Below, piece by piece: positions 13,026-20,601 of a DNA stretch of 64,000 nt (its first letter is position 1; every line of letters starts with the position of its first letter). The position numbers and the translations under genes are program-made. Source of the DNA: Haemophilus pittmaniae (GTDB taxonomy: Bacteria; Pseudomonadota; Gammaproteobacteria; Enterobacterales; Pasteurellaceae); assembly GCF_900186995.1 (NCBI RefSeq), contig NZ_LT906463.1, positions 1,550,001 through 1,614,000 of the forward strand. The letters run 5' to 3'. The notes below the pieces were generated by a model that did no database searches, had not been told where the DNA came from, and saw nothing but the letters and a program-made list of their open reading frames with translations.

Positions 13026-13640
13026 ATGTTTACCGGAATCGTACAGGGCGTTGCCCAAATTCAGGCCATTAAAAAATCAGATCATTTTAGAACACAGACC
13101 ATAAAATTACCACCGGCAATGCGTCAAGGATTGCAAGTCGGAGCATCCATTGCCAATAACGGGGTGTGTTTGACGGTGACACAAATTGACGGAGATTTGG
13201 TGAGTTTCGACATTATGCAGGAAACTTTACGCATCACTAATCTCGGCAGTTTAGAGGTGGGGGATTTTGTGAATATCGAACGCGCGATGCAGATGGGCGA
13301 TGAAATTGGTGGGCATATTCTCTCCGGCCATGTTTATTGCACCGCGAGTGTTTCACATATTATTGAAACTGAAAATAATCGTCAGGTTTGGTTTAAATTG
13401 CCGAATAAAGATGTGATGAAATATATCCTTACCAAAGGCTTTATCGCCATTGATGGTATTAGCCTGACCATTGGTGAAGTTAAAGAAGATGAATTTTGCG
13501 TGAATTTAATTCCTGAAACCTTGCACCGAACCCTTATCGGAAAACGCCAAATAGGGGATTTAGTGAATATCGAAATAGATCCACAAACCCAAGCGATCGT
13601 GGATACTGTAGAGCGATATTTGCAGGGAAGAGGATTATAG
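13026..13640 (+). CDS. ribE: Riboflavin synthase, alpha subunit
   Basis: Catalyses dismutation of two 6,7-dimethyl-8-ribityllumazine molecules to riboflavin plus the pyrimidinedione. The 204-residue protein shows the N-terminal [10 protein letters not shown] motif and two internally repeated lumazine-binding barrels (about 1-95 and 97-190), each with a [13 protein letters not shown] or [16 protein letters not shown] motif. There is no room for an FMN riboswitch in the 45-bp divergent spacer with norM. The following 90-residue gene starts 35 bp later in the same orientation and probably shares the transcript. Confidence 0.95.
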
Positions 13641-13675: not shown

Positions 13676-13948
13676 ATGAAACGCTATTATGACTTAAATC
13701 CCAGCAGTCCATTTTTTAACTTGATGCAAGATACCACGGAAGAAAATAAATTAACCGAGGATGAAAAAGAAAGAATTGTTTGGATTACAAGAACAAACCT
13801 TGTTGCAGTTGATCTCGAAACTGAAAAAAGCACAGCAGATGAAATGAACTATATCATTTACGGTGCGTTGAACAATATACCATCAGAGGAAATTGCCAAA
13901 AATTTACTCATCAATGAAATTGGCAGCGAAGCTGAAAAGTATTTATAA
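13676..13948 (+). CDS. Small acidic protein of unknown function
   Basis: Ninety residues, not recognised. It is rich in Glu/Asp and Asn (ending NEIGSEAEKYL), has no signal peptide, membrane segment or cysteines, and looks mostly helical from about residue 20. A TAAGG ribosome site lies before the ATG. It sits 35 bp after ribE, before a strong terminator, and about 90 bp from a degenerate CRISPR repeat, at the edge of the accessory block. It does not match the AcrIIC proteins I can recall, so no anti-CRISPR claim is made. The clean start, stop and terminator argue for a real gene; function unknown. Confidence 0.65.
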   Translation: MKRYYDLNPSSPFFNLMQDTTEENKLTEDEKERIVWITRTNLVAVDLETEKSTADEMNYIIYGALNNIPSEEIAKNLLINEIGSEAEKYL

Positions 13949-14033: not shown

Positions 14034-14069
14034 GTAATAGCGCTATATTTTATTTCGTAGTGCTACAAT
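14034..14069 (+). CRISPR. Degenerate type II-C CRISPR repeat
   Basis: A 36-nt segment that aligns without gaps to the intact repeat at 15796-15831 at 27 of 36 positions. It is best conserved at the 3' end (TTTCG-AGTGCTACAAT), including the extended -10-like TGCTACAAT that gives each type II-C repeat its own promoter. It has the same orientation as the intact repeat. Decay is typical of the oldest, leader-distal repeat. No further repeat is seen 30 nt downstream. Confidence 0.7.
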
Positions 14070-14197
14070 CCACTCAGAGATAGGTCGTTATCAGAGAGTT
14101 CTTCATTACACTCTTGCAAAAAAATTTTCAACAAGCGCTTAACATCGAGCACAGATAAAGGCAATGAAATTGGATACCGAGTTTTACCTTGAACCAT
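14063..14197 (-). CDS. Short reading frame abutting the degenerate repeat (doubtful gene)
   Basis: A 44-codon frame starting MVQGKTRYPISLPL and ending SGL, with an in-frame stop just upstream. Its stop codon is supplied by the degenerate CRISPR repeat, which suggests the C-terminal end of a longer phage or host gene cut at the repeat border. No clear ribosome site is seen. The product is not recognised. It could be chance; it is listed because it helps locate the junction. Confidence 0.3.
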   Translation of the reverse strand: MVQGKTRYPISLPLSVLDVKRLLKIFLQECNEELSDNDLSLSGL

Positions 14198-14285
14198 TTT
14201 CAAATCGTTTAAAAAAAATCATTCGATAAATCGCCCCTATAATCATAAAAACGCAAATACGCGCGATTTAGGGCGGTTTTATGTT

Positions 14286-14702
14286 TTATTTAATTACACT
14301 CCGAAAATAGGCTTGCACATCCTCTAAAATATCGTCCTCGTCCTGCGGGGTTAAAACCAAGAACGGACGGGCGGGAATATCGACTTTTCGCCCACGTCCG
14401 GCTTTACCACCAAATTGATGGATTGCCGCGTAAGGCTCATTTGTTCCGACTATGGCGATGTTATTATCATAATAGCTGGTGATACTATTCATTAGATTTT
14501 CTGTATCAACAAGCGGCGTGCCTTGACGATATTTCAGCCCTAACCACTTCGGACGCCCGCCCGCGTCAAAGTTTTGCAACACCGCTGATTCCATTGTGCC
14601 GGCAATGCTACGCATGAGTGGCGTACGGTCTCGTGCGGCTGCCGCTAACCGTTCTAATATTGTGGCAATTTGTTGCGCATTATTAATTTCAATTTCTATC
14701 AT
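14286..14702 (-). CDS. Mu-like phage virion morphogenesis protein (gpG-like)
   Basis: Homologue of Mu gpG / the phage virion morphogenesis (tail completion) family. The start is taken at 14702 (MIEIEINNAQQIATILERLA, the family-like N terminus), giving 138 residues; an in-frame ATG at 14735 would add 11 residues. Family features include RTPLMRSIAGTMESAVLQNF near residue 25 and the AAIHQFGGKAGRG...PARPFL block near 95-120. The gene seems intact but isolated: the usual neighbours (protease/scaffold, major capsid) are missing downstream and only a truncated F gene lies upstream. It is therefore a remnant, not a functional prophage. Confidence 0.8.
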   Translation of the reverse strand: MIEIEINNAQQIATILERLAAAARDRTPLMRSIAGTMESAVLQNFDAGGRPKWLGLKYRQGTPLVDTENLMNSITSYYDNNIAIVGTNEPYAAIHQFGGKAGRGRKVDIPARPFLVLTPQDEDDILEDVQAYFRSVIK

Positions 14703-14742
14703 AAGCGTTGATTTTTTAAAATTAAGGAGGTACATTTACCTT

Positions 14743-14836
14743 GCCACTAGAAAAGCGATGAATCTCGATGATCGCGGGCGAAGAGGTGAAATAGACTCGG
14801 GACTGTGTGCGGTGGGTTCGAGCCCCGCCTAGTGGC
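14743..14836 (+). other. tRNA-like fold between phage F and G genes
   Basis: Eight-base-pair acceptor-like stem GCCACTAG/CTAGTGGC stacked directly on a T-arm (GTGGG-TTCGAGC-CCCGC). This gives a 13-bp acceptor/T helix as in bacterial tRNA-Sec, and the total length of 94 nt is also similar. A possible D-stem is GCGAT/ATCGC (14755-14775). No acceptable 5-bp anticodon stem with a 7-nt loop could be found, and there is no encoded CCA. It fills the F-G gap on the opposite strand to both genes. It could be a decayed or unusual phage tRNA, or coincidence. Confidence 0.4.
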
Positions 14837-15785
14837 TTACTCTTTAAATGCCTTTCTCCATTGCTTATCGCTCACTAATCTAAACGACTGTACAAAAATT
14901 TCCGATTCTTTGCTCAGAGCTTTCAATACGGCAAGTAATTTCTTACCATTCACATCCTTATAAAATTGATACCCAAGCTTATCCTCTACGATTTTATCCG
15001 GAGAGTTGATAATATCCGGCAAACTTGCATAATCATCGATTCCAAACTCCTGCCCATCACGACTATTAAACTGTTTGATTAAGGTATCGTCAGATAGCCA
15101 CACTGTGCCGGTTTTACTTTGCAATAAGTTTTTGCTTTGCACACTCAAGACACCTGCCGCAAACTTAAAGTTTTTGGTTAAACCATCACGTACCTGCAAC
15201 ATTTGCTCGGCAGTGAGTTTCTTCCCTTCATGGCTAGATGATTGCTTAATTTCTGTCACCTGTTTCGCCAGCAAATTAAAATCATGAGCAAATTCGCTTC
15301 CGCGCATCTCCACCTTGGCAAACTGGTGCGCCAGCTTTTCCGGGTAAAGATCTAAATTCGGCTTATAGTTCAATCGTCCAACATTATAATCAAAGCCTTT
15401 ATCCGTTACTCGTACCGTGCCATCGGGCAATTTAAAACCAATCGTTTTTTCACGGTTTCCGGCTTTATCGGCAGGGCGTTCAACTTCGACTAAAAATTCT
15501 GAGCTGTCGTCCGGTTTATCCATGCCACGGCGTTGTAAATCACGTTCAGCAAGTGCAATCACTGAGCAGCGACAATTAAACCCATTTGGTGGGTAAAATG
15601 TCGCCCAAAATGGATCATCATAACGGTAAATTTTGCCGTTTAATGCTAAATGAGCCGGGCGGGTTCTTTCGTCGCCTACGGCGGAATATTGCCAGTAGGG
15701 GCGATTGTCTACATTATCCCGCATGCGTTGATAGCGAGCCGCAGAATAAGCCGTCAGCATATTTACTCTGTAAGTCGTATTTAAA
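14837..15785 (-). pseudogene. 5'-truncated Mu-like head morphogenesis gene (gpF-like) with nuclease-like tail
   Basis: The C-terminal part of a Mu gpF / SPP1 gp7-type minor head protein. An ATG-initiated frame runs from 15760 (307 codons), but family similarity continues upstream in frame (TTYRVNMLTAYSAARYQRM) to about 15785, next to the CRISPR repeat; roughly 100 N-terminal residues are missing. The diagnostic PPNGFNCRCSV motif is near residue 58. The last 150 residues differ from classical gpF. They resemble the BECR-type nuclease domains (PBECR) fused to such head proteins: VWLSDDTLIKQF, DYASLPDII and a final SFRLVSDKQWRK. The nuclease assignment is by pattern memory and moderate. Confidence 0.72.
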
Positions 15786-15795
15786 CAGCGGGGGG

Positions 15796-15831
15796 GTTGT
15801 AGCTCCCTTTTTCATTTCGCAGTGCTATAAT
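15796..15831 (+). CRISPR. Single intact type II-C CRISPR repeat
   Basis: A 36-nt repeat starting GTTGTAGCTCCC and ending GCAGTGCTATAAT, very close to the N. meningitidis type II-C repeat and complementary to the tracrRNA anti-repeat at 20475-20510. Its last nine bases TGCTATAAT form a perfect extended -10 promoter element. It is the only full repeat in the window. The sequence 5' of it is phage F gene DNA, and the sequence 3' of it is a hairpin and then cas2. Orientation is opposite to the cas genes. Confidence 0.9.
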
Positions 15832-15841
15832 AGGGACAGCA

Positions 15842-15880
15842 AAAAGCCTCATGCCGCAAGGTTTAGGGGCTTTTGTTTTG
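15842..15880. terminator. Hairpin between cas2 and the CRISPR repeat
   Basis: AAAAGCC/GGCTTTT stem with T-rich tracts on both sides, so it could stop the cas transcript on the minus strand and any outward transcript from the repeat promoter on the plus strand. It occupies the place of a leader. Confidence 0.55.
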
Positions 15881-15892
15881 TCTAAAAAATGG

Positions 15893-16219
15893 CTAAAAAA
15901 GCAATAATTGATTTGAATTGACCTTTTTTTCTTGCAGTTTTTTCTCTCCCACTAAAATTTCCATGCTCGCAAATTGTTTTTCTGTAATAGATAAGCATCG
16001 AATAGAGCCTTCTTCAGGTAAGTGTGCAACGAGTCTTTTATGATGTTTTTCTAAAGCATCTCGCCCTTTAATAATTCGAGTGTAAATAGAAAGTTGCAAC
16101 ATTTGATAACCATCTTTAAGTAAAAATTGACGAAATTGGTTTGCAGCCCGCATTTTTGCTTTAGTAGTAACCGGTAAATCAAATAAAACGATCATACGCA
16201 TAAATACCCCCTCACTCAT
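15893..16219 (-). CDS. cas2: CRISPR-associated endoribonuclease-like Cas2
   Basis: Partner of Cas1 in the spacer-integration complex. The start at 16219 ([17 protein letters not shown]) overlaps the cas1 stop as ATGAGTGA; an alternative ATG at 16201 has a GAGGGG ribosome site. The product is 108 (or 102) residues, the usual size, with the ferredoxin-like first strand MIVLFDLP carrying the conserved Asp, then [20 protein letters not shown] longer frame opening at 16315 lies inside cas1 and is rejected. It is last of the cas9-cas1-cas2 set, with a hairpin and the single repeat just beyond. Confidence 0.92.
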
Positions 16220-17129
16220 ATTGATATTCCTGCAATATATCGATTTCAGGTAACTGCAATAATGCTGCATTTTTTTGAATAAGTGTAATTTGTAAAGAGG
16301 AAATAGCTTTATCAATGGCAGTTAAAACACTCACTTTTTCTTGGTTAAAGCATAGTTGATGATGCAAGATTTTAATTAATTGCTGTTTTGATAGAGGACT
16401 GAGATTTTGGGAGAGTAATCCTTTTTCGAGCAAGTCCCATACCAGCAAATCAACAAGAGGGCGAAACGGTTCAATAAAATCATCCGCTAAATTAAAGGCA
16501 TTGAGTTCGCTATGATGAAATAAACCTAATTGAGGTAGCCAACCATAAAGAACAAGGCTTCTTGCCACAGCTGAACGCATAACGGAATAAGCATAGTTCA
16601 GATGTATATTAATCGAATTGTTTTCTTCTTTTCGTCTGAAATGAGCGCCGAATAATCCAGAGAAATAAATGACCGCACTTTGTGCCTCAATATTATCTTT
16701 ATCGCCTGATTTCACTAAATTAGCGAGCCGTAGTAACCGCTCTGATTTTTCTTGATGCTGACAGAGTGATAAGACTTTTGCTTGATTACGAATTTTTTGT
16801 TGCACAATGCGTTGCCAAAGTTGTTTTTTCAGTGGCAAGCTCGTTTCAAGTTGTAATTTAAGGGTTTTTAATTGTCGATAATATTGATTAAAAGGGAGCC
16901 ATTGACCACAAGGTAAAAATTGTTCATCACAACTCAATAAAGTAATCCCGTATAAACCGAATGCCGAGAGCAATGGAAGGGTAATCACTGTTTCTCGGCT
17001 TTCCACAACAACAATAGCAATATCTTCTAAAGGAACGGTAAATTCGTTTCCTTCTTGTTGAATCAACATTTGTTGTTGATGCAAAGAGAGTTTTCCTCCC
17101 TTACTAATAAGAAGACTTCTCCATGTCAT
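16212..17129 (-). CDS. cas1: Type II CRISPR-associated integrase Cas1
   Basis: Metal-dependent integrase that inserts new spacers at the leader-side repeat together with Cas2. Length 305 is typical for type II-C. Likely metal ligands are in place: Glu148 ([11 protein letters not shown]), His205/His206 ([12 protein letters not shown]) and Asp near 220 ([10 protein letters not shown]). The start ATG follows AAGGATAC. An exact uptake signal AAGTGCGGT is embedded at codons for Ser-Ala-Val (150-152). It is separated from cas9 by 61 bp containing a terminator-like hairpin, so it may be expressed less than cas9 or from its own signal. Confidence 0.95.
16672..16680 (-). other. DNA uptake signal sequence inside cas1
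   Basis: Exact nine-base core AAGTGCGGT (minus strand), preceded by A and followed by an A/T-rich ATTTATT tract in the spacing of the extended Haemophilus-type uptake signal. It lies within cas1 coding sequence. Confidence 0.8.
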
Positions 17130-17141
17130 AATGTATCCTTA

Positions 17142-17181
17142 TAAAAAATCCCCATACGTATACGTAGTACGTATGAGGATT
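17142..17181 (-). terminator. Terminator-like hairpin between cas9 and cas1
   Basis: On the minus strand a 14-bp stem (arms 17168-17181 and 17147-17160, one G-T pair) with a 7-nt loop is followed by six T. It lies 10 bp after the cas9 stop and 13 bp before cas1, so it should limit read-through from cas9 into cas1-cas2. Confidence 0.75.
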
Positions 17182-17190
17182 AAATTGAGA

Positions 17191-20100
17191 TTAACGAACA
17201 GATTGGCATTTACTTGGGTTACATAAACGAATATTTTTCCCAAGTTCATCTATTTGATATTTTTCAAAGGAAAGAGCTAGTTTTATTCCAACACCTTGAT
17301 GAATACCGCCTTTTGCTTTAGATTTTTCTAGATCATGTTCCTTAATAGCAATATTACCTGTTGCTCGGTCAAGCCCATTAAAGTAACCCAAAATTGTTTT
17401 CTTTTTAGTGACTAATTTTACTAAGTCATTTGGGTGCAATGAAAATTTGAAAATTGCAGAGTTATCCATCACTTCCCAATCTTCCTCATCTTTATATTGT
17501 GTCGCAGCTTTATTAGGCAAAATACCCTTAGCTACTTGCCAGGTATAAATTGGCACAAGGAAATATTTTCCATCTTTAGTGAAAACATCTACTCTCACCA
17601 TAGAAGCATTATCCGCGACACCATTACCCTCACGGACTAATACGCCAGATTTTTGTACTTGCTCTACCCGTACTGATTTAACAATAGCCCCGCCTTTTTT
17701 TATAAAAGGTTCAGCAAACGCTTTGGCAGGATCATCATTAAACGCCTCTAGACGAGCTTTTAAAGCATCATAAAGATCTTTTTCACGTTCACGATTTACC
17801 ATCAATTCTAAATCTTTTAATTTTAATTTAGTGAGTGGCATTTTAATCACGCTTATCCCTTCATTGAGACGTTTCGCGGATTTCACGGTTTCCATGTGTC
17901 CTTGACCGGTCATTTTGCGTGTTGGCATTCGAGATACAAACAGAGGTTGGACAAATTCATGATTTGCTTGTGGACGATCTGGCAATCTATTTTCTAGCTC
18001 TAGTTTAGGATTATCACTAAAAATTCGGATTTCAACTTCTTGTTTGAAAAATTGCCATGGTGTAGGGAAGTGTAATGGAATAATTTCACCCGTTTCACGA
18101 TCTATTCGTTCACCAGTGAATACATCGCCTGCTTCAAAACGAACAAAACGTGTGATTTTTTGCTGCATAGCGACGGTTGAGCAAGCAACCACAACGGCAT
18201 CTAAAGCGTGATGGCGCTCATTGTCTTCACGTGATTTTGCTAATCCCCAACGACTACGAAGTAAAGCAGTAATTTGCCCGTTGGAAGCAAATACTTTGCG
18301 TTTTCCTTCACCTGTTAAGTGCATATTATCTGCAATAAAGTTACATAAGAAACGAGCAACGTAGCGCGTATCATTTAAGTTACGTTCAATAAAGCCCTTT
18401 TCATCAAGCTTTTGGCTTAGGATGCGTTGTTTTTTCGCATAAGGGAATGCACTGGTTTCAACTAATGCTTTGAAAGCTCTCCAGCGTTCGCTGTTATGTT
18501 TACCATCTAGCCATTCAAAAGGGGTTAAATTGCCTTTGTTTTGATTTTCATTAGCAAGCACTAGTACTTTATTGTTGAAGCTATCATCCCAAGTGCGGGA
18601 GAATGGCAAGGCATGATCGACTTCTACATAGCCTTTTTCTAATAAACGGTGTAATTCGATAGGTTTGCCGGAATATAAACATTTTGCATTTTGTTGCTTA
18701 TAAAGTCGCATTTTTAAAATGTCTTTGGCTTTAGGTTCACCTGCAAAATGAGGGAAGTATTCTTTAAATTCCTTGATTGCGTTTTCACGCTGTTTACGAT
18801 TTTCTTCCTGACGTTTTTCTAGTTCACGACGATCTTTGTAAGATTTGCCGACTTCGCGTCCCGTTTCAATATGAATACGAGCTGGCGAACCATATAATCG
18901 CACTACACCATTAATCACTTTACGAGCCTGCGTGAGTGTTCGTAAAACCACAGGATTACGAATTTCATCAGCTGGAATCTGTGGTAAGAAGTAATGGTTT
19001 TCTTCTGTTTTTTTACCATATGTTTTTTTACCATAATGATCGCCATACATTTCATGACAAGCCTCGTCATAGCGTAGTCCTTGTTGCATTAATGGCAGAA
19101 GTTTATATAAAGCTTTAAGAGATAATTGGATAAATTTATCAAAACTAAGATTTTCCAATAAGGCATTTAATACAGGCTGAGAGAGTTTTCCTGCTAAGTA
19201 AGTACTGATGTCTTCATCAGTTTTATATAATGAAAACGCTGTGCCAATTTCATCTAATAATGTTGAATTTTCCTTTAATTCCGTCCATTCAGCTTTTAGG
19301 TTATTACCTTCCAATACCTTACGAATTTGGTGATAGGCTTTCATTTCCATCAGTGTTGTTTTGGTTTCAATGGCTTTTTTATCTTCACCGGAATAACGGA
19401 GACCTTTAAAGATTGCCTCATCAGATAAATTTAGTATTGAACGTACTTGTGCATAAGTTAATTTAGCTTTTTCATAAGGTTGTTCGATTAGAATTAAACG
19501 TTCATTATCATTTAAAGCACGCTCTAAGCCATTTTCTTGAATACGTAAATTATTTAATTTTGTTATCCAAACAAAACGTTCTGCAGTATAGGTGTTTTTA
19601 GCTGCCTTATATTCATCTTCAAAAGTACATTTACCGAGCATTTTTAAAATGGCTTCACCAGATAGGGCAGGCTTTTGCCACATTAAAAGTGCTGTCAAAT
19701 TTTCTAATAATTTTTCTGAAGCAAATGGATTACCAAAGTGTTGTTGACGAGAGAAGAGGAGTTCCATTTCGGCGAGTAAGTCTAGTCGGCTAAACGTGTG
19801 AGTATAGGCGCCTTGTTGGTTACGGATATGGCCTTCTTCGACCTCAAATTTTTTTACAGCAAGTTCTGCAGGCGTGCGATATGTAGTTTGTTGCAGTAAT
19901 TCATGGTTACTGGCTACACCGCTTAATAACGCGCCTAGCTCTTTATTTTCGCTTTTACTTTCATTTTTACGCTGAGATAAATAACCACGGTGCTTAATTA
20001 AATGTAATAACACAGCAGCCCATTCTTGGCGTTTTAGTTTACGATCTAGACCTTCGACACGTAGCTGCCAAACTTGATGAGGAAGACGTTCATCAGTGGA

Positions 20101-20370
20101 TAATAGGATATTTTCTAATTTTAGAAGTCGTTTTGCTTTTTTCAGGCGAGCAACGCGACGCTGAGTTAATCGACGAGCGGAGCGGGCTAAACGGCGAGAT
20201 AATGCTAGACTTTCCCCTGTTTTTGGTACTTCGGCTCGTTCAAATGTACGCACCCCAACGTCAATTAAGCATAGGGGATTTTCCTCTTTATCAATTTCAA
20301 CAACAGCCCAACCAACAGAGGCAATGCCAAGATCTAAGCCAAGGATATAATGCAAGTTCTTATTTTCCAT
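17191..20370 (-). CDS. cas9: Type II-C CRISPR RNA-guided endonuclease Cas9
   Basis: Compact (1,059-residue) type II-C Cas9 of the NmeCas9 group; cuts DNA matching a crRNA:tracrRNA guide. All catalytic residues are present: RuvC-I Asp13 in [12 protein letters not shown], Arg-rich bridge helix (about 58-84), RuvC-II Glu502 in [16 protein letters not shown] His586 in [15 protein letters not shown], and RuvC-III Asp724 in [11 protein letters not shown]. The C-terminal PAM-interacting domain ends in [17 protein letters not shown], as in the meningococcal enzyme, but the PAM-contact stretch before it ([13 protein letters not shown]) differs, so PAM preference may differ. A candidate promoter is TTGCTA-16 bp-TATAAA (20415-20388), with AAGGA before the ATG. 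No inactivating change is seen. Confidence 0.97.
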
Positions 20371-20435: not shown

Positions 20436-20464
20436 TTGACTGCAAAAAAATAAAAAGATAGAAT
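20436..20464 (+). promoter_or_regulatory. tracrRNA promoter
   Basis: TTGACT (20436-20441), exactly 17 bp, TAGAAT (20459-20464). Predicts a start near 20471, just ahead of the anti-repeat. Confidence 0.75.
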
Positions 20465-20470
20465 TTACAA

Positions 20471-20574
20471 CGTTGTAATAGCACTGCGAAATGAAAACCG
20501 TTGTTACAATAAGAGATTAGTTTCTCGCAAAGTTCTGCCCCTTAAAACCTTCGTTTTAAGGGGCATCTTTTTTT
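20471..20574 (+). ncRNA. tracrRNA (type II-C)
   Basis: Trans-activating RNA that pairs with the crRNA repeat and holds Cas9. The anti-repeat at 20475-20510 is complementary to the intact repeat, with an unbroken central block GCACTGCGAAATGAAAA and a second paired block TTACAAT after an internal bulge. A nexus-like stretch (AAGAGATTAGTTTCTCGC) follows, then a 12-bp terminator hairpin at 20537-20564 (GCCCCTTAAAAC with complement, loop CTTC) and eight T. The layout matches the meningococcal tracrRNA closely. It is divergent from cas9 and has its own sigma-70-type promoter. Confidence 0.92.
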
Positions 20575-20601
20575 ACATTTTAAATATGAAAATGGTAAAA
20601 C

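Follow-up and report, generated by a model that had tools for sequence, protein, structure and literature searches.

Joints between phage genome pieces and CRISPR repeats in Haemophilus pittmaniae and related bacteria suggest that arrays can capture kilobase segments of phage DNA

Recombination between CRISPR spacers and phages is reportedly a laboratory phenomenon of staphylococci (Varble et al. 2019), in which phage DNA is said to have been joined to a CRISPR locus via the identity between spacer and target. That study, which PMC8000906 cites, is also reported to show that neighbouring cas genes can move horizontally, as they seem to have done at the locus described here. The present case would differ in being a natural fossil, in which the edge still has its repeat, pieces of two unrelated phages flank one repeat, and the array has decayed. 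We know of no in vivo precedent for the acquisition of oversized, kilobase-long spacers. Mu-like prophages of Pasteurellaceae, such as SuMu and 3927AP2, have the same F–G content and order as the segment that we studied, but these are whole phages, whereas our locus has only ∼1.6 kb from the middle of such a genome, and no ends. The type II-C arrays of Haemophilus parainfluenzae, the source of HpaCas9, have the same cas genes (PMC6282205); unlike them, the present locus is without an ordinary spacer and has one 1726-bp interval. Loss of spacers by recombination between repeats, as treated in PMC8047081, would explain the loss of units with repeat boundaries kept, but it brings in no phage DNA. 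No report of phage segments filling a spacer slot was found among the titles and abstract openings searched, and the word ‘prophage’ is absent from the main text of PMC13016550, in which the CRISPR systems of Haemophilus were surveyed in 2026.

The locus lies in a window of 64,000 nucleotides, the whole stretch of H. pittmaniae DNA that was analysed, and all positions refer to this window. The genome is a single contig of 2.18 Mb, and belongs to a family, represented here by 140 genomes, that includes Haemophilus. The order of the locus is a gene that we take to be ribE (13026–13640), a 90-aa frame, a decayed repeat, the phage segment, an intact repeat, a leader, cas2, cas1, cas9, a probable tracrRNA, and a gene that is presumably DedA-like (Table 1). 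The 90-aa frame (13676–13948) between ribE and the array was not seen in sibling loci, and G025 alone gave matches over 200 bp (73–75%), others being short. The same leader and cas genes are present in five of the ten other genomes of the genus search (G001, G002, G007, G008, and G010). All five have ordinary arrays at the same site, with 30, 16, 20, 33, and 14 spacers, respectively, counted from repeat lists, and with spacer lengths of 30–31 bp. The initial annotation had proposed looking for a normal array in relatives, and its presence there implies that phage DNA replaced array content. In the remaining five genomes the array and cas locus appears to be absent, since the ribE–dedA alignment distance is short (554 bp in G003, 101 bp in G004, 95 bp in G005 and in G006, and 94 bp in G009) and a cas query gave either no match or one of 44–50 bp. 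The search, which covered one genome per species, turned up no case in which these phage genes occupy the site in the absence of a CRISPR locus.

Table 1. Positions of the features of the locus within the window.
Feature	Position	Strand	Remarks
Leader-distal terminal CRISPR repeat, decayed	14034..14069	+	27/36 to consensus, 29/36 to first repeat of G008; same place as degenerate first repeat in 5 siblings
95 bp without assignment	14070..14164	.	Weak similarity of 14112–14162 to polyvalent-protein genes of giant phages
Mu-like phage segment, comprising the 3' part of F, an RNA element between the genes, G, and a tail downstream of it	14165..15795	-	Homology ends at 15793–15795
gpG-like tail completion/neck protein, 149 aa	14286..14735	-	PF05069, phrog_26
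gpF (MuF) C-terminal part, 307 aa, PBECR3 nuclease-like domain, without N-terminal ∼125 residues	14837..15760	-	Pfam/PHROGs
Spacer-sized F stretch adjoining repeat, candidate ancestral spacer	15766..15795	+	Inferred; no sibling spacer matches
Leader-proximal repeat, intact	15796..15831	+	36/36 to genus consensus
Leader/terminator-like hairpin	15832..15880	+	Kept in 5 siblings
cas2, open frame, start placed by us	15893..16201	-	
cas1, 305 aa, open frame	16212..17129	-	
cas9 type II-C, 1059 aa, open frame	17191..20370	-	High sibling identity ends near 20300
Probable tracrRNA, anti-repeat 20475–20510	20462..20580	+	Partly inferred; both Rfam matches sub-gathering, on other strand

The two repeats recognized in the initial annotation were both borne out. 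The right one is identical to the genus consensus and matches the Rfam family CRISPR-DR34 (60.6 bits, E = 2.4e-11), and it is the sole copy in the genome at up to 3 mismatches. The left one is repeat-derived, as indicated by its similarity to the consensus and by its position; the first (leader-distal) repeat is 5'-degenerate in all five sibling arrays, as it is at 14034. Elsewhere in the window the best consensus matches are 28/36 at 20475 (minus strand) and then 22/36, compared with an ungapped 27/36 for the repeat at 14034. There is indeed no further repeat between the two (best 19/36), and within 14070–14164 no decayed repeat was found (best 18/36). A repeat of the family adjoining the leader and cas2-cas1-cas9 identifies the locus as type II-C, but regular spacers of ∼30 bp are missing, the single interval being 1726 bp long, compared with 30–31 bp for sibling spacers.

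Assignment of the intervening DNA to a Mu-like phage, with a gpG-like and a gpF-like gene, was confirmed by Pfam, PHROGs, and comparison with SuMu. Both SuMu and a Mannheimia Mu-like phage show ∼71% identity to the segment, and the closest relatives among the loci compared reach 83% over the whole length and up to 91% over parts. The segment is mid-phage, corresponding to SuMu 16363–18388 of 37151, and has no second copy in the genome. Of the hallmarks of Mu-type transposition, both phage ends are missing, the segment being internal to the phage, and with them the place at which a 5-bp target duplication would lie.

Phage homology ends 0–2 bp before the intact repeat. In a count of 149 alignments to phage loci, for which the query itself ended at 15795 and which includes the same contigs fetched twice, 108 stop at 15793 (103) or 15795 (5), and the other 41 further left. 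With a query extending to 16100, none of the 70 alignments listed passes 15795; homology running through the right repeat, which according to the initial annotation would have spoken against its reading, was thus not seen.

The left edge is different. Phage sequence had been thought to reach both repeat borders, like one giant spacer, and this is shown for the right border only: long BLAST matches have their left limit at 14189–14198, weaker similarity continues to ∼14163, and the similarity of 14070–14164 to the DNA downstream of gpG in 38 of 80 phage loci is not beyond that of shuffles, 125 of 200 of which scored as high. Within these 95 bp, a stretch of 51 bp (14112–14162) has a 78% match to polyvalent-protein genes of giant phages, which is suggestive only. 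Searches of phages, plasmids, and viral contigs with the left segment gave nothing convincing, and a match to the C-terminus of an ABC ATPase was rejected as probably due to chance, because its E value of 0.05 was per genome over 140 genomes and the genus has no close relative of the gene (best 39%). The short frame that takes its stop codon from the degenerate repeat was confirmed. It recurs in four protein clusters comprising 30 contigs (27, 1, 1, and 1); three of the clusters end as in the window, the end of P0004 being different, and the left joint is therefore not an assembly error.

Proteins from other assemblies have almost the same joint between gpF and the repeat, with a fragment of an unrelated phage gene on the repeat's other side. 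A search with the truncated F protein gave 1436 proteins, and the best 120 of these include the same truncated protein (P0005, 2 contigs) and six clusters, from 21 contigs, that join a tape-measure fragment (Pfam TMP_3), the peptide IALRNEKG, and F in one frame. These hybrids read as tape measure up to MRFG, followed by IALRNEKG and then by F from PRCLN. IALRNEKG is the translation of the repeat on its minus strand, and is present in those six of the 124 proteins compared. The assemblies are presumably strains of the same or a sister species. Among the family matches listed, 49 of 53 tape-measure matches end at query residues 103–109, that is, at the repeat. The nearest tape-measure homologue among the loci compared (96%) adjoins minor tail genes, and we read it as part of a siphophage-type (lambda-like) tail module rather than that of a Mu-like phage. 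In each of the six clusters the tape-measure frame begins at one and the same internal codon, which a comparison with L397 indicates to be GTG. As deduced from the protein, the joint of the hybrids is 5 nt shorter on the F side than that of the window, and the repeat cannot be recognised over its last 9 nt.

In two of three hybrid groups, the first residues of F are significantly more divergent than the rest. With residues numbered from PRCLN, a comparison of P0006 with P0008, an intact F protein, gives 4 differences in the first 14 residues and 1 in the next 304 (p = 1e-5). The corresponding figures are 4/14 and 2/304 for P0007 against P0008, and 4/14 and 0/306 for P0025 against P0026 (p = 2e-6), while P0017 and P0018 against P0020 show no significant clustering (3/14, 25/304, p = 0.12). 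As a control, 22 pairs of intact F proteins differ at 0–2 of the first 14 residues and at 6–61 of the rest. A recombinant of the Varble type would be expected to have a spacer-sized tag between repeat and phage DNA; what is seen, at the protein level, is a divergent tag of 14 codons in two of three hybrid groups. On sequence grounds, we read these codons as what may be an old tag beside the repeat, beyond which the sequence would have been exchanged with different phages. The reading is weakened by the length of the tag, which exceeds a 30-nt spacer, and by the lack of a match among sibling spacers.

Related joints were found in other genera. An array scan of 80 loci found with Cas1 recognised arrays in 60. 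In Necropsobacter massiliensis (L165, 11059–12402), a 1344-bp interval follows 12 regular repeats and lies exactly between the last two repeats. It carries the polyvalent-protein domain LPD3, a head protein, and a neck/tail terminator, and reaches as far as the start of the phage gene that follows. Both of its edges are exact, with homology from the first codon after one repeat to the last codons before the other. The LPD3 gene is never found together with the head and terminator genes in the 17 phage loci compared (8 with LPD3, 9 with the other two), so the insert may come from one unseen phage or consist of two pieces. Eleven further array regions were chosen for showing repeats; five of these were new, and the F matches of G020 were already known beforehand. 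In G020 (L484, 9149–10220), the last repeat is cut at nucleotide 24 and fused to Mu-like F–G DNA with a 3-nt microhomology. The phage piece is leader-distal in all three genera, and the repeat is followed first by the C-terminal portion of either a MuF or a polyvalent protein, and then by head/neck genes. Four of the six edges examined (F in the window genome, the tape measure, and two in Necropsobacter) are within ∼3 nt of a repeat boundary, and two (the F side of the hybrids and G020) are not edge-exact. Two other long gaps were rejected as phage inserts, that of L170 being the tracrRNA anti-repeat and that of L184 masked Ns; gaps of 4.5–5.1 kb in the scan were taken for the probable anti-repeat beyond cas9. 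The intervals covered do not include the long or odd gaps of L158, L166, L188, L191, L201, and L208, or the ∼2.2-kb opposite-strand pairs in L210, L211, L213, L216, and L219. Separately, the array of a Clostridia MAG (L178, 6220–7844) has inter-repeat intervals of 426 bp and 994 bp.

The cas genes beside the intact repeat have a history of their own. From 15796 to ∼20300, identity to the five siblings is 0.90–0.98 in 41 of 45 bins of 500 bp, the four lower bins being at 0.77 (G007), 0.82 and 0.87 (G002), and 0.88 (G010). Beyond ∼20300, bins of 50 bp are at 0.60–0.88, except for the last, nearly empty bin, and in the flanks identity to ten genomes is 81–83% for ribE and 77–79% for the dedA stretch. 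Because of this excess over the flanks and the step near 20300, the block from the leader through cas2 and cas1 into most of cas9 seems to have been exchanged for a version that came from a donor resembling H. parainfluenzae. This imported tract has its left end between 14069 and 15796, and vertical inheritance seems to apply to the tracrRNA region and the terminal repeat. Further along the window, 21414–21439 matches the L25 ribosomal protein leader (RF03131), barely over the gathering score.

The locus and the related joints in relatives suggest that phage genome pieces of kilobase size can be captured by CRISPR arrays. Our preferred account, to which we give somewhat less than an even chance, is that phage DNA recombined into the array, probably via phage-matching spacers, that repeat–repeat deletion removed the rest, and that the cas block was imported. 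Behind it stand the sibling arrays, the exact right edge, the tape-measure/repeat/F joint at the protein level, the ∼14-codon tag, and the high-identity cas block. One spacer of the ancestral array would have matched the gpF gene of a Mu-like phage, and such a phage would have recombined with the array through this short identity, bringing F and G directly against the repeat. In other strains, a siphophage with a lambda-like tail module would have been joined via a neighbouring spacer to the other side of the repeat, and the F part would have undergone exchange with two or more distinct Mu-like phages. Repeat–repeat deletion would then have taken out the remaining spacers in the lineage of the window, and the leader, cas2, cas1, and most of cas9 would have been replaced by a horizontally acquired copy; the order of these steps is our reconstruction. 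Spacer–phage recombination explains the tag, the edge-exact joints, and the presence of two phage pieces beside a single repeat. We hold it tentatively, since two of the six edges are not exact and no PAM is found at the edges.

The PAM preference of HpaCas9 is given as N4GNTT in PMC6282205, and degenerate PAMs are described for several type II-C orthologues in PMC9433092. N4GNTT occurs at no edge, and at the F edge in none of 59 distinct phage sequences, a set to which the true source phage does not belong. The sibling spacers provide a comparison: the set of 115 strings, which includes two of flank DNA (the first of G001 and the first of G002), contains 7 that match phage loci at up to 2 mismatches, four in Mu-like and three in tape-measure loci. 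Strict N4GNTT is present in only one of these seven protospacers. A purine-N-T at positions 5–7 is present in five of the seven compared with none of five edges (F, left, tape measure, and two from Necropsobacter; p = 0.028), by a measure that was chosen after the data, with classes counted by eye, and with two edges from another genus, whose own PAM may differ from that of HpaCas9. None of the 115 strings resembles the 30 nt at either edge of the interval between the two repeats (best 14/24), their matches being at other phage sites.

Missing PAMs would suit an unprocessed fragment better than spacer–phage recombination, and so lend something to the idea that kilobase phage pieces (F–G, tape measure) became giant spacers when Cas1–Cas2 integrated them at the leader-proximal repeat, with older spacers lost by repeat recombination. 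Edge-exact joints fit such oversized acquisition, which would account about as well as recombination for the Necropsobacter interval exactly between two repeats, and the common start codon of the tape-measure frames looks as if that piece were bounded upstream too. However, it would not predict the divergent tag seen at the joint, the 95 bp beside the left repeat are not demonstrably from the same phage, and the Necropsobacter insert, which has no single-phage match among the loci compared, sits in the oldest, leader-distal slot; we regard it as rather unlikely. Another rival is a Mu-like prophage that inserted in the array and decayed, leaving deletion joints at repeats by chance. Mu-like phages transpose widely, there is a G-run at the joint in the window, and the remnant in the cut repeat of G020, with its microhomology, looks like a plain deletion joint and is best explained in this way. 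Insertion and decay had been among the routes named at the outset, and is weakened by the absence of phage ends, by the four edges so close to a repeat boundary, and by the unrelated tape-measure fragment that in other assemblies abuts the same repeat as the Mu-like piece, so that we consider it unlikely.

Import from outside offers another way to join phage DNA, a repeat, and cas genes: hybrid phage or prophage DNA with a captured repeat could have been brought in with the cas block by transformation or transduction. The imported tract extends from the joint, or from a point to its left, to near 20300, and the hybrid cluster P0018 is labelled Caudoviricetes in a public record. Searches of viral contigs for exact patterns found neither the genus repeat nor the joint, and the repeat at 14034 is the terminal repeat of a pre-existing array, which leaves this account improbable. 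The cases in the window, in Necropsobacter, and in G020 may not all result from one process.

In a wider sense, and more doubtfully than the mechanism preferred above for the window, arrays of Pasteurellaceae may be recombination hubs, where phages enter repeatedly at repeat edges via spacers, spacers give way to kilobase phage pieces, and a Mu-like phage and an unrelated siphophage can be stitched together round one repeat. If so, arrays would be not only a record of phages but also a place where phages recombine with the host and with other phages, and the joints would be a natural footprint of a process not known to have been shown so far outside the laboratory. It would also be one route by which an array dies while its cas genes persist, and would provide a simple search rule, namely phage genes that start exactly at a CRISPR repeat.

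The phage segment also contains an element of ∼95 nt between gpG and gpF (14738–14842, plus strand), which is conserved in Mu-like phages (30 distinct sequences). The structure drawn from these sequences, with a closing stem and a loop–loop pseudoknot, is 98.9% paired in 18 aligned sequences, 17 from phages of our choice and that of the window. The element has no match by ARAGORN or in Rfam 15, and the number of further pair types is not above that of shuffles (156/500). Changes on both sides were found in 13 of 25 pairs, and the covariation score is 0.436 compared with 0.160 in shuffles. The element looks like an unnamed structured RNA.
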